Source of the DNA: Paenibacillus bovis
GTDB lineage: Bacteria > Bacillota > Bacilli > Bacillales > Bacillaceae_C
Length of the DNA stretch: 64,000 nucleotides
NCBI GenBank assembly: GCA_007679095.1
Contig: VEFU01000002.1
Coordinates: forward strand, 62,001 to 126,000
Reading direction: 5' to 3'
Shown piece after piece: positions 10,921 through 59,729 of the stretch (within the stretch, counting starts at the first letter, position 1; each line of letters begins with the position of its first letter). Made by a program: the position numbers and the translations under genes. Under the pieces are notes generated by a model that did no database searches, was not told where the DNA came from, and saw only the letters and a list, made by a program, of their open reading frames with translations.

Positions 10921-10949
10921 ACTATTGTACAATAAAAAAATATGATTCG

Positions 10950-11078
10950 TCTTCGGGGCGGGGTGCAATTCCCCACCGGCGGTGATGAAGCAATAGCTTC
11001 TAAGCCCGCGAGCTTCTGATGAAGCAGGATTTGGTGCGATTCCAAAGCCGACAGTATAGTCTGGATGGGAGAAGATGG
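10950..11078 (+). ncRNA. FMN riboswitch (RFN element)
   Basis: The sequence carries the conserved RFN blocks in order: GGGGCGGGGTGCAATTCCCC, ACCGGCGGTGAT, AGCCCGCGAGC, GATTTGGTGCGATTCC, AAAGCCGACAGT and GGATGGGAGAAGATG. TCTTC near 10950 pairs with GAAGA near 11071 to close helix P1. It lies in the ribU leader and is followed by an intrinsic terminator at 11140-11170, so FMN binding should stop transcription before ribU. Confidence 0.97.
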
Positions 11079-11139
11079 AGGTTGTCTTGTGTTCAAATTG
11101 CAGGTTTTGAACGCTTATTAATGTATGCCTTATTATTCT

Positions 11140-16331: not shown

Positions 16332-16778
16332 ATGGAACCATTCTTGCTAAATATCGATGATCATAGTACGAAGTATATGTTGCAAAATTTAATAAATAAA
16401 AAATTAAAATTCATTCGCTATAAAAATATTCATTTTATTTTCTTAACTTCGGCATTCTTATATAGTTTTTTTGCCTTTTATTTTATTTATAAAACTGGAA
16501 TAGAACCTTATGATATATCTATGATGGATGCTTTTTCTTCGTTTCTTCGTAATTCACATTTCGCTACACTTATTTGTATTGCATTCATCCTTTTTGGTGC
16601 AGTTAAAATATTTAATGAAAAAAAAGAAAAACTCGAGAAAGAATTTCATGCTCTTCGATGTGAAATTATTGATAAGGCAAATGATGTGTGGAAGGGCGAA
16701 AGCAAACACGAAAGAAATTCAATATACGAAAAGATGAAAAAGAAGTATGATATTAATTTATATCATGTAAGTAAATAA
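16332..16778 (+). CDS. ypbF: YpbF-like membrane protein
   Basis: A 148-residue protein of the YpbF family with two hydrophobic helices (about residues 30-52 and 72-92) and a charged C-terminal tail. GAGGGGGG directly precedes the ATG at 16332, which is better supported than an in-frame start at 16281. Position after ypbE matches B. subtilis. Function unknown. Confidence 0.83.
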   Translation: MEPFLLNIDDHSTKYMLQNLINKKLKFIRYKNIHFIFLTSAFLYSFFAFYFIYKTGIEPYDISMMDAFSSFLRNSHFATLICIAFILFGAVKIFNEKKEKLEKEFHALRCEIIDKANDVWKGESKHERNSIYEKMKKKYDINLYHVSK

Positions 16779-16780
16779 GG

Positions 16781-16830
16781 ATAGGGGCTCTCAAGTAAGT
16801 CAAGAAAACTGACTTTATGAGAGCCCCTAT
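16781..16830. terminator. Bidirectional hairpin between ypbF and ypsA
   Basis: ATAGGGGCTCTCA (16781-16793) pairs with TGAGAGCCCCTAT (16818-16830), and AGTCA/TGACT extend the stem. Flanking T-runs are short. It separates convergent genes and is built like the ribU/fer terminator, suggesting a repeated terminator type. Confidence 0.7.
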
Positions 16831-16884
16831 TCCCTTTTACTCTAATTGTTTATTTAAGCTTCAGGCACTCCAAATAATGTACAA

Positions 16885-17442
16885 TTAATAAAAATCCTGA
16901 TTCGCCTGTTCTTCTTCAGCTATCACTTGTAAATCATATCCATTAATGATGAAGATCTCAAAAGCATGTTTCTCCGCATAGTGTTCAGCTAATTCTTTTA
17001 TATATTTCGGTGATCCTTCATTTTCTTCGTCGTAAATAAGCAATAACCCATCGGCATTGCGAATCAGAAATTTGTTTTTTTCGATAAATTGCCAAGGGGC
17101 CTCATATGGTTTTTTTGTCACACTTGTGTAAAAATCAGCATTTGCAATAATCGATTGATATTTTTCTTGGTTGTGTTCATTCCACCTTTTTTCTTGATCA
17201 AAAAAAGGAGTGATTACTGCATATTTGATGGGGAAATTGCGTTTTTTTAAGTCGATTATTAGCTCCGCTGTCCATATTTCTACTCCTAGTTGTCCACTAA
17301 TAATAACCCATTCTAATCCTTCATCGATTAATGGTAGCAATTGATTTTCAATTGCTTTTTTTATGTATGTTATTCCCGGGTGTTTTTCATCAAATATACC
17401 AAGTTCATGTTGTTTATAACCAGTCACGATAAGTCGTTTCAT
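16885..17442 (-). CDS. ypsA: SLOG-family protein YpsA
   Basis: A 185-residue protein of the YpsA (DUF1273) family with a Rossmann-like SLOG fold. The segments VTGYKQHELGIF, EWVIISGQLGVEIWTAELI and DGLLLIYDEENEGSPKYI match B. subtilis YpsA, which has been linked to cell division and oxidative-stress protection. I chose the start at 17442 (MKRLIVTGYK); the upstream ATG at 17466 adds eight residues that fall in the leader. In B. subtilis the gene is next to gpsB; here it stands alone, convergent to ypbF. A candidate ncRNA terminator ends about 20 bases before its Shine-Dalgarno. Confidence 0.9.
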   Translation of the reverse strand: MKRLIVTGYKQHELGIFDEKHPGITYIKKAIENQLLPLIDEGLEWVIISGQLGVEIWTAELIIDLKKRNFPIKYAVITPFFDQEKRWNEHNQEKYQSIIANADFYTSVTKKPYEAPWQFIEKNKFLIRNADGLLLIYDEENEGSPKYIKELAEHYAEKHAFEIFIINGYDLQVIAEEEQANQDFY

Positions 17443-17461
17443 GTAAACATCCCCAGTCCAA

Positions 17462-17492
17462 ATCAAAAACCAGTTCCCGTAGGAAACTGGTT
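17462..17492 (-). terminator. Terminator of the minus-strand ncRNA / ypsA leader
   Basis: On the minus strand AACCAGTT (17492-17485) and AACTGGTT (17475-17468) form an 8-bp stem with loop TCCTACGGG, followed by TTTTGATT. It ends just before the ypsA ribosome binding site, so it either ends a separate small RNA or attenuates ypsA. Confidence 0.72.
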
Positions 17493-17699
17493 CAAAGTCA
17501 TGTTAAATTAAAGCCGCCTTTGTCGTATTTGTCAAAGAAAGTTTTAAACCACCACTCCTAAAAGTGGGTGTTCGCAGAAACATTCCTGTATGTCCTTGTT
17601 ACATAAGTGAACGAGGCTTGCCATTTCTGTTTCGATTTTAAACTCCCTATTACAGCTTAAAGGTTAAAACTTGCTATCAATACGAGCAATGCAGCTTGT
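17462..17699 (-). ncRNA. Candidate rod-shaped ncRNA (6S-like or ypsA leader)
   Basis: The roughly 238-nt minus-strand transcript predicted here has its own promoter and terminator and folds as a long rod. Closing helices on the transcript: AAGCUGC (17697-17691) with GCGGCUU (17517-17511); UCGUAUUG (17685-17678) with CAAAUACGA (17531-17523); AAGUUUUAACC (17672-17662) with GGUUUAAAACUU (17550-17539). A small hairpin lies at 17570-17550. The ends pair at the predicted start site, with bulges in the middle, which is the general shape of 6S RNA. I do not see a sequence match to B. subtilis 6S-1 or 6S-2, nor to RNase P RNA or tmRNA. A regulatory leader of ypsA is the main alternative. Confidence 0.55.
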
Positions 17700-17705
17700 A
17701 TATAT

Positions 17706-17734
17706 AGTATATACCAGTTTGTTGAGATATACAA
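17706..17734 (-). promoter_or_regulatory. Promoter of the candidate ncRNA
   Basis: On the minus strand, TTGTAT (17734-17729) and TATACT (17711-17706) are spaced exactly 17 bases. The predicted start (about 17699) coincides with the base of the RNA's closing helix. Confidence 0.65.
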
Positions 17735-17765
17735 TGGAAATTCATACTAATAAACTTGCAATTAA

Positions 17766-17780
17766 TTATAATAATTATAA
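17766..17780. promoter_or_regulatory. Perfect PerR-type box
   Basis: TTATAATAATTATAA matches the Bacillus PerR consensus (7-1-7, TTATAATNATTATAA) at every position and is the centre of a 23-base perfect palindrome (17762-17784). It lies between the divergent ncRNA promoter and the pfeT promoter. AT-richness raises the chance of a fortuitous match. Confidence 0.6.
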
Positions 17781-17817
17781 TTAAATAACTGATGTAGAAT
17801 TGTATAACATATGATAT

Positions 17818-17832
17818 TAATAATCATTATCG
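17818..17832. promoter_or_regulatory. Fur-type box upstream of the pfeT promoter
   Basis: TAATAATCATTATCG differs from the 7-1-7 Fur consensus TGATAATNATTATCA at two of fourteen defined positions. It is about 30 bases upstream of the -35, a position suited to activation. Confidence 0.5.
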
Positions 17833-17860
17833 TTAAAAGATGTATTTTCTCAGTTATAAT

Positions 17861-17889
17861 TTGACAACAAACGATTATTTTAATATCAT
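17861..17889 (+). promoter_or_regulatory. pfeT promoter
   Basis: A perfect TTGACA (17861-17866) and TATCAT (17884-17889), 17 bases apart, lie about 58 bases upstream of the pfeT start codon. Confidence 0.75.
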
Positions 17890-17893
17890 TAAA

Positions 17894-17908
17894 ATATAAT
17901 AATTATTA
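17894..17908. promoter_or_regulatory. PerR-type box over the pfeT transcription start
   Basis: ATATAATAATTATTA matches the PerR consensus at 12 of 14 defined positions and covers the predicted start site just downstream of the -10, a repression position. Confidence 0.5.
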
Positions 17909-17946
17909 TAAATATGGTACGAGTCATATGGAGGTGTCACATAAGG

Positions 17947-19857
17947 ATGGATGCACATGTGTTAAAGAGTGAGAAATCAATAGCCTCAAGAAATTATTTA
18001 GAGAAGATAAGGATAAATAGTGAATTAGTTGCTGCAATCTTTAGTGGAATATTAATCCTCATTGCTTGGATATTAGAAGGAAATATGTCAGTAATACCAA
18101 TCATTTTATACGTAGTAGCTTTTATTATTGGAGGTTTTGCAAAGGCGAAAGAAGGAATTGAAGAAACAATAGAAACGAAGAAGCTGAATGTAGAGATGTT
18201 AATGATTTTTGCTGCAATTGGTTCAGCTAGTATCGGCTATTGGACAGAGGGCGCGATACTTATTTTTATTTTTTCTATTAGTGGTGCTCTTGAAACTTAT
18301 ACAATGAATAAGAGTCGTGCTGAAATCTCATCGTTAATGGAATTACAGCCTGAAAAAGCCTTAAGAATAATGAATGATAAGGAAGAATTAGTTCATGTTG
18401 AGGAGTTAAATATAGGTGATCATATTTTAATCAAACCTGGTGAAAGGGTTCCCTCAGATGGTGAAATTATTAAAGGAGCAAGCACGTTAGACGAATCAAC
18501 TATAACTGGTGAATCAATACCAGTAACAAAAAGTAAGCTTGATCAAGTATTTGCAGGAACTGTAAATTTAAATGGCTCTATTACTGTAAAGATTACGAAG
18601 ACTAGCAAAGATACATTATTTCAAAAAATTATTGAATTAGTACAATCGGCTCAAAGTGAAAAATCACCATCACAATTATTCATTGAACGATTTGAAAGTG
18701 TTTATGTAAAGATTATATTAGTTGTTGTAGGGGTCATGATGTTTTTACCACATTTTGTATTAGGATGGAGTTGGACGGAAACTTTATATCGCGCCATGAT
18801 TTTACTTGTAGTAGCATCTCCATGTGCGCTTGTGGCTTCCATTATGCCAGCAACTTTATCAGCGATTTCTAACGGCGCAAAGAAGGGATTGCTTTTTAAA
18901 GGAGGAGTTCATTTAGAGCAACTAGGTAATATTCATGCTATCGCATTTGACAAAACTGGAACATTGACGCGAGGAATGCCAGAGGTTACGGATATGTTTG
19001 TCAATGATGAGTTAAATGCACAAGCAATTCTTCGAATAGTTGCATCGATTGAGAACGAATCAAACCATCCATTAGCTAATGCAATAGTTAGATACGGGAA
19101 AGAACAAGGACATGATAAATTGTTACATCCGGATAGTTTAGATGATGTGCCGGGTTGGGGAATAAAGGCCGTTGTAGATTCAAGAACGTGGAAAATTGGT
19201 AAAGCTGAATTTGTTGGAAAAGAAGCAGCAAATAACTTTCTAGATGGCTATGGAAAATCTCTTGCTAAAAATGGAAAAACAGTAATATATGTAAGTTTAG
19301 AAAATAAAGTTATTGCATTATTTGCTTTGAAAGACAAAGTTCGAATTAATGCAATAAAAGCAATTGAATTACTTAAAGCAGAAGGAATTCATACTATCAT
19401 GTTAACTGGGGATAGTGAAGAAACAGCAAAAAATATTGCGTCTGAAAGTAACATAGATGAATATATAGCGGAATGTCTGCCCGTTCATAAAGTAGAACAT
19501 ATTAAAAAATTAAAAGAAAAATACAAACATGTTGCAATGGTCGGAGATGGTATTAATGACGCACCAGCATTAGCGACTGCAGATGTAGGTATTTCCATGG
19601 GAGAAGGTACTGACGTAGCATTAGAAACTTCAGATGTAGTGTTGATGAAGAATAATTTAATAAGAATATCAGAAGCCATCCGATTATCAAAAAGAATGAA
19701 CAAAATTATTAAACAAAATATTGCTTTTTCTATAATTGTGATCTTATTACTAATAGCATCTAATTTTTTTCAAGTATTGGATTTACCGTTAGGGGTAATT
19801 GGGCATGAGGGAAGTACCATTTTAGTCATATTAAATGGTTTAAGATTATTAAAGTAA
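17947..19857 (+). CDS. pfeT: P1B4-type metal ATPase, PfeT/ZosA-like Fe(II) exporter
   Basis: P-type ATPase of 636 residues, virtually the length of B. subtilis PfeT (ZosA, 637). Early transmembrane helices lie in the first 125 residues. The actuator domain has TGES, the metal site is SPC (S291-C293) in the middle of the membrane core, D335 of DKTGT is phosphorylated, and GDGINDAPAL forms the hinge. The last helix has HEGST (H620). SPC with HEGxT marks the P1B-4 group, whose Bacillus and Listeria members export ferrous iron. The ATG at 17947 follows GGAGGTG; an earlier start at 17914 lacks one. The boxes listed upstream fit PerR repression and Fur activation, as known for B. subtilis pfeT. Cobalt or zinc export is possible. 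Confidence 0.88.
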   Translation: MDAHVLKSEKSIASRNYLEKIRINSELVAAIFSGILILIAWILEGNMSVIPIILYVVAFIIGGFAKAKEGIEETIETKKLNVEMLMIFAAIGSASIGYWTEGAILIFIFSISGALETYTMNKSRAEISSLMELQPEKALRIMNDKEELVHVEELNIGDHILIKPGERVPSDGEIIKGASTLDESTITGESIPVTKSKLDQVFAGTVNLNGSITVKITKTSKDTLFQKIIELVQSAQSEKSPSQLFIERFESVYVKIILVVVGVMMFLPHFVLGWSWTETLYRAMILLVVASPCALVASIMPATLSAISNGAKKGLLFKGGVHLEQLGNIHAIAFDKTGTLTRGMPEVTDMFVNDELNAQAILRIVASIENESNHPLANAIVRYGKEQGHDKLLHPDSLDDVPGWGIKAVVDSRTWKIGKAEFVGKEAANNFLDGYGKSLAKNGKTVIYVSLENKVIALFALKDKVRINAIKAIELLKAEGIHTIMLTGDSEETAKNIASESNIDEYIAECLPVHKVEHIKKLKEKYKHVAMVGDGINDAPALATADVGISMGEGTDVALETSDVVLMKNNLIRISEAIRLSKRMNKIIKQNIAFSIIVILLLIASNFFQVLDLPLGVIGHEGSTILVILNGLRLLK

Positions 19858-19863
19858 AGCTTT

Positions 19864-19907
19864 GGTTAAGTAGAAATGTATGTGCGATTTCTGCTTAGCC
19901 TTTTTTT
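19864..19907 (+). terminator. pfeT terminator
   Basis: GGTTAAGTAGAAAT (19864-19877) and ATTTCTGCTTAGCC (19887-19900) form a 14-bp stem with two wobble pairs, then seven T. Confidence 0.85.
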
Positions 19908-20001
19908 ATGGAGAATTGTGAAATAAGAATGATTATTACTATTTATCGTACAATAATGAAGTAAATGGTATAATCAGTTTAAAAATAAGGTGTGGTCCCT
20001 C

Positions 20002-34505: not shown

Positions 34506-34520
34506 CCCGCAGGATGCGGG
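34506..34520 (+). other. AGGAT-loop hairpin 1
   Basis: CCCGC, loop AGGAT, GCGGG: a perfect 5-bp stem inside repeat copy A. Confidence 0.75.
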
Positions 34521-34522
34521 TC

Positions 34523-34563
34523 AGGAAGGCGTTGCAACAGGATGTTGCGTATTTAGCCTTCCT
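34523..34563 (+). other. AGGAT-loop hairpin 2 in an outer stem
   Basis: GCAAC, loop AGGAT, GTTGC (34534-34548) is enclosed by AGGAAGGC (34523-34530) and GCCTTCCT (34556-34563), an 8-bp outer stem. Confidence 0.75.
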
Positions 34564-34650
34564 TCAGCAAACGACCGCCTTTCTCTTTTCTTGTTGTCTA
34601 GCTCCATCGCCTAGCGCCTAGCAAATTTACGATTTCTTCCTACGATAATG

Positions 34651-34667
34651 CCCTACAGGATGTAGGG
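34651..34667 (+). other. AGGAT-loop hairpin 3
   Basis: CCCTAC, loop AGGAT, GTAGGG: a perfect 6-bp stem. The loop region reads ACAGGATGT, the core of the CsrA/RsmA-binding consensus. Confidence 0.75.
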
Positions 34668-34669
34668 TA

Positions 34670-34708
34670 GTTCGATGTTGCCACAGGAAGTGGCGCCTTT
34701 AATCGAAC
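34670..34708 (+). other. AGGAA-loop hairpin 4 in an outer stem
   Basis: GCCAC, loop AGGAA, GTGGC (34680-34694) within GTTCGAT (34670-34676) and ATCGAAC (34702-34708). Confidence 0.75.
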
Positions 34709-34771
34709 AACCTTTGTGGAAGCTCATCGTGTTTCCTTTATCTCGTCAGAAATCTTTGTACAAGTTTGAAG

Positions 34772-34810
34772 CGTCGACTAAAATCGGCACATCCTGTGCC
34801 AACGTCGACG
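34772..34810 (-). other. AGGAT-loop hairpin 5 (minus strand) in an outer stem
   Basis: On the plus strand GGCAC, ATCCT, GTGCC (34786-34800); read on the minus strand the loop is AGGAT. Outer stem CGTCGAC (34772-34778) with GTCGACG (34804-34810). Confidence 0.72.
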
Positions 34811-34837
34811 TGACCAACCTCCTGTTGGCCCACGTCG
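34806..34837 (-). other. AGGAG-loop hairpin 6 (minus strand) in an outer stem
   Basis: Plus strand CCAAC, CTCCT, GTTGG (34814-34828), so the minus-strand loop is AGGAG. Outer stem CGACGTG (34806-34812) with CACGTCG (34831-34837). Confidence 0.72.
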
Positions 34838-59580: not shown

Positions 59581-59587
59581 TTCTTTG

Positions 59588-59729
59588 GGCAGTATCAGAT
59601 GAACTGCACCATGAAATACCCTTACCATCATATTTTCTGCCTTGATCCATTGTGGACTAGGACAGAGGGCCGAAACGAGTAATGGAATAAAGGAGTCCTT
59701 CTGCCTATTTGGAGAGGACTATTTTTTTT
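59588..59729 (+). ncRNA. Structured panB leader with a conditional terminator
   Basis: The leader contains a GCAGT/ACTGC hairpin near 59591, a CCATT...AATGG helix (about 59648-59685), and an intrinsic terminator: AGTCCT (59694-59699) with AGGACT (59715-59720), then eight T after one A. GGACT (59654-59658) and AGGAC (59659-59663) can pair with the terminator's left arm, giving an alternative fold. The Firmicute pan motif RNA is known from panB leaders, and this is a candidate by position. I could not match its exact consensus. Confidence 0.5.
59694..59729 (+). terminator. Terminator in the panB leader
   Basis: A stem of at least six pairs, AGTCCT/AGGACT, is followed by ATTTTTTTT. It lies upstream of panB in the same transcript as the promoter at 59572, so it must be conditional or partial. 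Confidence 0.75.

Follow-up and report, generated by a model that had tools for sequence, protein, structure and literature searches.

A sequence-only reading of the 64,000-nucleotide stretch of DNA analysed here (the window) had proposed a structured RNA with a 6S-like shape on the minus strand before ypsA, and had left its nature between a separate small RNA and an attenuating leader for ypsA. The locus raises the question of what kind of RNA it encodes, how that RNA relates to the gene downstream, and how the two came to stand side by side. The features on which the answer depends are as follows.

17507..17700, minus strand: 6S RNA, probable second (6S-2-like) paralogue, 194 nt (RF00013, model R1, fold z, covariation)
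17706..17711, minus strand: -10 element TATACT (sequence; all 62 copies have a like pair at this position)
17729..17734, minus strand: -35 element TTGTAT, 17-base spacer to the -10 element (sequence; promoter scoring of 62 copies)
17554..17565, minus strand: small hairpin of ACUU/GAGU type, 3' side of the central bubble (4 pairs)
17659..17672, plus strand: predicted product RNA 5'-AAAGGUUAAAACUU, templated by RNA nt 42-29 (5' side of the central bubble)
17467..17493, minus strand: intrinsic terminator between 6S and ypsA (12 pairs, 5 G-C, loop of 3, T-run)
16885..17442, minus strand: ypsA, 185 aa, SLOG family (PF06908, E 2e-68; NF010181 above cut-off)
17914..19857: P1B-type metal ATPase gene (this gene and the 6S promoter flank both palindromes described below)

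Identity of the RNA

Under permissive filters, the 6S model RF00013 matches 17507-17700 on the minus strand at 62.2 bits (cut-off 46.4, E 6e-12) and is covered in full (1-187 of 187), so that the Rfam scan suggested with the original reading overturns its statement that no sequence resemblance to known 6S RNA could be seen. No RF00013 match to this copy appeared in gathering mode with the Rfam fast filters, whether the whole window or a 601-base piece was scanned, and a genome-wide RF00013 search recovered only the other 6S copy of the genome; because fast-filter scans drop the match, the RNA can look like an orphan. Copies scoring above the RF00013 cut-off are up to 84% identical to it, and its nearest sequences are second 6S genes of other Bacilli. 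R1, a covariance model built from alignment A1, gives the window copy 191.6 bits, the copy itself being part of the training set. All other Rfam families were rejected as identities, the next best reaching 23 bits against a cut-off of 100. Judged from sequence, the RNA is very probably a second, 6S-2-like paralogue of 6S; the RNA class is a known one, and only its recognition at this locus is new.

A probable second 6S gene among scattered paralogues

The same genome carries a 94.1-bit 6S gene on another contig (L001), well above the 62.2 bits of the window copy; it stands between an aspS-type gene and a yrvM/tcdA-type gene. The two copies are 57% identical. According to the cited text of PMC11077062, aspS and yrvM flank bsrA (6S-1) in B. 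subtilis, and because the 6S-1 of this genome occupies the aspS-yrvM place, the window copy is regarded as the second paralogue. Orthology of the window copy with 6S-1 was considered and rejected, there being no aspS-6S-yrvM order and its neighbours being ypsA and a P-type ATPase.

RF00013 scored above its cut-off in 59 of 60 genomes, among them that of the window. Among the best-scoring copies, one per genome (L001-L031), an aspS-type gene is adjacent in 27 of 31 and a yrvM-type gene lies within two genes in 26 of 31. The same 60 genomes, searched with filters on, list 40 additional 6S copies (39 over the cut-off), none of which has an aspS or yrvM neighbour, and at most 4 of the 40 share any one neighbour; second 6S genes are thus scattered, whereas the first are mostly fixed. 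Five named-genome copies, four of them beside ypsA, reach 72-78 bits with RF00013. Moreover, 6 of the 16 genomes of the window's genus have no R1 match, so the second copy is dispensable.

That some Firmicutes have two 6S genes is stated in the cited part of PMC8414754. The window copy resembles B. subtilis 6S-2 (bsrB) in being a second 6S gene outside the aspS-yrvM position, a likeness of gene status and place rather than of sequence compared with that of B. subtilis; unlike the window copy, bsrB is given no ypsA link in the cited portions of the literature. With bsrA it shares the family, the small 3' bubble hairpin and a GG in the product RNA, but bsrA is described, in the text cited, as lying between aspS and yrvM, and the window copy lies elsewhere. 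The tandem ssrSA-ssrSB of the B. cereus group, as presented in the cited part of PMC7726162, is likewise an extra 6S gene in a Bacillus relative; there, ssrSB uses the ssrSA promoter, whereas the second gene described here has a promoter of its own and lies on another contig. Compared with the 6S family as a whole (RF00013, SsrS), the window copy has the full-length covariance match, the rod with a central bubble, a product RNA template, and its own promoter and terminator, and is unusual in escaping fast-filter scans and in scoring well below the 6S-1 of its genome.

Structure and covariation

The segment 17462-17699 folds at -68.1 kcal/mol (z -4.8), with none of 200 shuffles as stable, in keeping with the paired rod first proposed, and its 5' end pairs with about 17511-17517 in the predicted fold, close to the partner at 17511 named earlier. 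The core alone (17507-17700, 194 nt) reaches -52.4 kcal/mol (z -3.9).

Covariation in relatives was followed in two alignments, both of which contain covarying helices. A1 comprises 32 sequences and leaves out 9 of the 40 second copies, judged by eye too different (L055, L057-L061, L063, L064 and L069); A2 comprises 34, namely the window, 10 named-genome copies and 23 of the remaining 31 similar second copies, 8 near-duplicates being left out. With an Rfam-derived structure that was not fitted to its rows, A2 has 86.2% of cells paired and both-side changes in 18 of 49 pairs, against 40-48% and 6-14 pairs in slid controls and means of 81.5% and 12.8 pairs in shuffles, none of 500 of which reached the observed values. 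With its RNAalifold structure, A1 has 98.6% of cells paired and 11 of 42 pairs with both-side changes (slid controls 43-57% and 2-5 pairs). Covariation is greatest in the apical stem, and the bubble hairpin pairs (A1 columns 143-146 with 153-156) are standard in 32 of 32 rows. In the terminal stem, the window copy has one C-A mispair where U-G or C-G is usual (A1 columns 15/190). Terminal stem, central bubble and apical stem make up the rod expected of a 6S RNA, and covariation backs this architecture.

Promoter and terminator

The discrete RNA of the sequence-only reading, with its own promoter, rod and terminator, is borne out in all three elements, and its coordinates were right to within a base or two. 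The -35/-10 pair with a 17-base spacer is present as TTGTAT (17734-17729) and TATACT (17711-17706), and the RNA would start at about 17700 on the minus strand, just after TATACT. The promoter-scoring script chose the overlapping TGTATA, with a 16-base spacer, as the -35 element of the window, and the promoter, too weak for the consensus promoter scan, is absent from the list produced by that scan. The terminator hairpin with T-run, placed earlier at 17468-17492, runs from 17493 to 17467, ahead of the ypsA start at 17442; the end of the 6S gene lies 64 nt from that start on the same strand.

These signals recur in a set of 62 copies consisting of the window, 20 copies from f49 (a family in another order of the same class), 10 named-genome copies and 31 others. 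A -10/-35-like pair precedes the RNA by the same distance in all 62, compared with 13.9% of mononucleotide shuffles, under criteria fixed after some of the 62 sequences had been looked at. A terminator lies within 90 nt 3' of the RNA in 55 of the 62 (shuffles 2%), the other 7 having none by the script's test.

Several further features of the window were observed. A TTGACA-17-TTTAAT arrangement at 17507-17535 on the minus strand, at the 3' end of the 6S gene, points toward ypsA; by eye it occurs in none of the other rows of A1 and A2, and since in addition its -10 has no second-position A, it is perhaps due to chance. Two palindromes of the form TTATAATNATTATAA, which we take to resemble the PerR box, lie at 17766-17780 and 17897-17911 with 0 and 1 mismatch, where 0.29 were expected in the window and 2 of 100 shuffles had two; the neighbouring P1B-type ATPase may be a PerR-controlled metal efflux pump. 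The Rfam scan of the window also listed an FMN riboswitch (10945-11080), three Bacillaceae-1 RNAs (34506-34828) and a pan motif (59586-59669).

Product RNA and proposed function

The 14-mer AAAGGUUAAAACUU is encoded in 47 of the 62 copies, by a tally of sequence types, and a text search of the literature for part of it returned unrelated matches only. In B. subtilis, the 6S-2 product RNA presumably begins with A. Known 6S product RNAs have GG at positions 4/5 or 5/6, with an A of the 6S RNA preceding the start, in the rules set out in the cited part of PMC8414754, and the predicted product RNA follows these, with GG at 4/5 and an A just before the start. The predicted start site lies near 17659. 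The product RNA given for B. subtilis 6S-1 in the cited text of PMC12005410 is GUUCGGUCAAAACUA.

As a member of the 6S family, the window gene may be expected to act by promoter mimicry. Its own promoter would yield an RNA of roughly 195-240 nt whose rod and central bubble would imitate an open promoter; this RNA would bind the sigma-A RNA polymerase holoenzyme and keep the enzyme off DNA promoters, until the polymerase copied the short product RNA AAAGGUUAAAACUU from the 5' side of the bubble, whose synthesis would refold the 6S RNA and free the polymerase, for example at outgrowth. This sequence of events follows the account of 6S RNA in the cited part of PMC8876501, in which the promoter mimic retains sigma-A RNA polymerase until product RNA synthesis sets it free; association of B. 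subtilis 6S-2 with sigma-A polymerase is mentioned in the cited text of PMC11077062, and the cited part of PMC7726162 calls the function of 6S-2 unclear. The rod and bubble, covarying helices, promoter, terminator, conserved template and separate 6S-1 gene are features read from sequence, while expression of the window gene, polymerase binding, product RNA synthesis and any division of labour with 6S-1 are expected by analogy.

Recurrence of the 6S-ypsA arrangement

The named-genome scan covered the best 80 of 172 ypsA relatives, with flanks of up to 6 kb, and R1 finds a 6S gene in 9 of these 80 loci. In 4 of the 80, all from Sporosarcina (L113, L081, L078 and L114), the 6S gene lies directly upstream of ypsA on the same strand, at 77-293 nt; in L130, a tandem 6S pair lies farther from ypsA. 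Among 37 f49 genomes with ypsA, 24 have an R1 match (one weak, 54 bits), and in 5 (G566, G484, G558, G653 and G455) the 6S gene is on the ypsA strand and precedes the first aligned ypsA residue by 72-87 nt; three of these five linkages were recovered again in a search of YpsA loci. From its range of identities, f49 is probably a Planococcaceae-type group (Sporosarcina, Psychrobacillus, Lysinibacillus, Planococcus). A terminator lies 3' of the 6S gene in 9 of 9 ypsA-linked copies. Within the window's order, inspection by eye revealed no other 6S-YpsA pair within 1 kb among the matches listed, and two genomes (G206 and G231) have weaker 6S matches, of 93 and 88 bits, about 5.5 kb from YpsA. No paper on 6S-ypsA linkage or on 6S expansion was found in the literature searched, the scope of which left out most subscription papers.

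Two side observations concern these loci. Tandem 6S-2-type pairs, with starts about 260-340 nt apart, occur in L130 (1473-1928), G135 and G281. Additionally, in 3 of the 5 loci that were scanned with Rfam, ypsA is closely followed by a BsrC RNA (RF01410) encoded on the other strand (L081 6653-6740, L078 6653-6740 and L113 6659-6746); the fast-filter Rfam scan of the window lists none.

Alternative explanations

The recurrent gene order bears on the reading of the RNA as an attenuating 5' leader of the ypsA mRNA, in which the hairpin at 17467-17493 would be a regulated terminator. Shared strand, the 64-nt gap, the position of the terminator immediately before the ypsA start region and the recurrence of the order in Sporosarcina and f49 genomes are all what a leader would lead one to expect. 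However, ypsA occurs in the flanks of none of the 40 second copies from relatives (flanks of at most about 2.8 kb, less where a few contigs end), and R1 matches nothing within about 1.5 kb of any of 30 YpsA loci from the window's order. The RNA has the structure of a trans-acting 6S RNA, and in the predicted fold the terminator arms do not pair with the 6S part. With the terminator hairpin separating the two genes, the earlier suggestion of an attenuating leader loses its footing: we consider this explanation very improbable and a ypsA-leader role of the window RNA unlikely, although read-through from 6S into ypsA may occur.

A separate, new class of small RNA with only the look of 6S would account for the empty fast-filter scans, but it is left with next to no probability by the full-length match under permissive filters and by the identities of up to 84% to copies over the RF00013 cut-off; the separate small RNA entertained at the outset is instead an RF00013 member nearest to second 6S genes of other Bacilli. 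The gene might also have been acquired as a 6S gene and be decaying without function, whether or not it is transcribed, as the C-A mispair in the terminal stem, the lower Rfam score, an end branch of 0.21 in the 6S tree and the patchy occurrence in the genus could suggest. Its R1 score nevertheless falls inside the 165-223 bits of the family's strong copies, with the caveat that R1 was trained in part on this copy, and the promoter, terminator, bubble and product RNA template are all intact, which makes decay improbable.

Origin of the locus

Protein search finds ypsA in only 6 of the 16 genomes of the window's genus. The other five are 46-51% identical to that of the window, and their flanking genes, which we take to be the usual ypsA-gpsB surroundings, are unlike those of the window, where ypsA lies between ypbF and ypbG. 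Of 15 relatives examined around ypbG, none has ypsA in the ypbF-ypbG stretch: in 10, ypbF lies on the stretch, separated from ypbG by other ORFs (the same three genes in five of them), 4 have no ypbF within about 6 kb, and in G001 the contig ends first. The ypbF-ypbG interval (window 16778-19990; L207-L221) is variable in the genus. Other window genes nearby are also far from the genus, mecB being 45-54% identical.

Among the ypsA relatives listed from a class-wide search of 398 genomes, f49 sequences fill all of the first 26 ranks (60-70%), with G052 of the window's order next at 61%; no other listed genome of that order exceeds 54%, and the remaining families of the class go up to 59%. In the ypsA tree, own-genus sequences split from the window and 80 others (SH-aLRT 100), and the window, with the longest end branch (0.41), stands beside a Psychrobacillus-Lysinibacillus-Ureibacillus group (SH-aLRT 82) and not beside the 6S-linked Sporosarcina, supports here being of the 'quick' kind. 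Because of this position and branch length, a simple Sporosarcina donor is disfavoured. Among the best 80 of 172 loci, no Psychrobacillus or Paenisporosarcina locus has an R1 match in its flanks (up to 6 kb). The ypsA and 6S sequences of L080, titled Arthrobacter beigongshangensis, nest with Sporosarcina-type sequences, and this entry is probably mislabelled or contaminated.

Both 6S trees use 31 of the 40 second copies, and the tree containing f49 also leaves out the 6S-1-like L345 and L349. The window falls with the f49 and named copies, with support of 86/50 for the whole group and 90/85 for a ten-member subgroup holding five ypsA-linked copies. In topology tests on groups chosen after the tree had been seen, placing the window with six own-genus copies was rejected (p-AU 0.003), and placing it with 25 copies from families of the same order, its own among them, was not rejected (p-AU 0.204). 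The 6S tree alone does not prove transfer, and the window 6S groups with the wider f49-type family less firmly than ypsA does.

From the ypsA identities, flanks and trees, transfer of ypsA is therefore fairly well supported. Joint transfer of 6S with ypsA would be the simplest reading of the shared gene order, though not a proven one; independent insertion, or old paralogues with losses, may offer alternatives.

Multi-copy genomes and significance

Amplification of 6S genes is apparent in several f49 genomes. G484 has five strong R1 copies (172-191 bits; L340-L344) and one weak, 6S-1-like copy; G558 has three strong copies (L346-L348) and one weak; and G551 has three copies within 8 kb (L350), which share about 330-360 bases. 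Of the G484 copies, those at 1074680 and 1155518 are 82% identical over about 106 bases upstream of the RNA, and no other flank similarity among the copies of that genome was listed at E 1e-4. The multiplying unit may be little more than the gene and its promoter.

We put forward tentatively, and with somewhat less than even confidence, the view that 6S-2-type genes in Bacilli are mobile promoter-6S-terminator cassettes that multiply and cross taxa, the window copy having come with ypsA from a Planococcaceae-type genome and landed in a variable spot by ypbF. If this is true, a host may gain an extra handle on RNA polymerase by horizontal transfer.

On the level of annotation, a second 6S gene can escape notice because fast Rfam filters drop its match, and some 6S paralogues in Bacilli may be uncounted, with one case found here beside 40 other extra copies obtained with filters on. 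If the linked transfer and the multi-copy genomes hold, 6S-2 could be tested as a gene subject to gain, loss and amplification, and genomes with none, one and five strong R1 copies would provide a natural dosage series.
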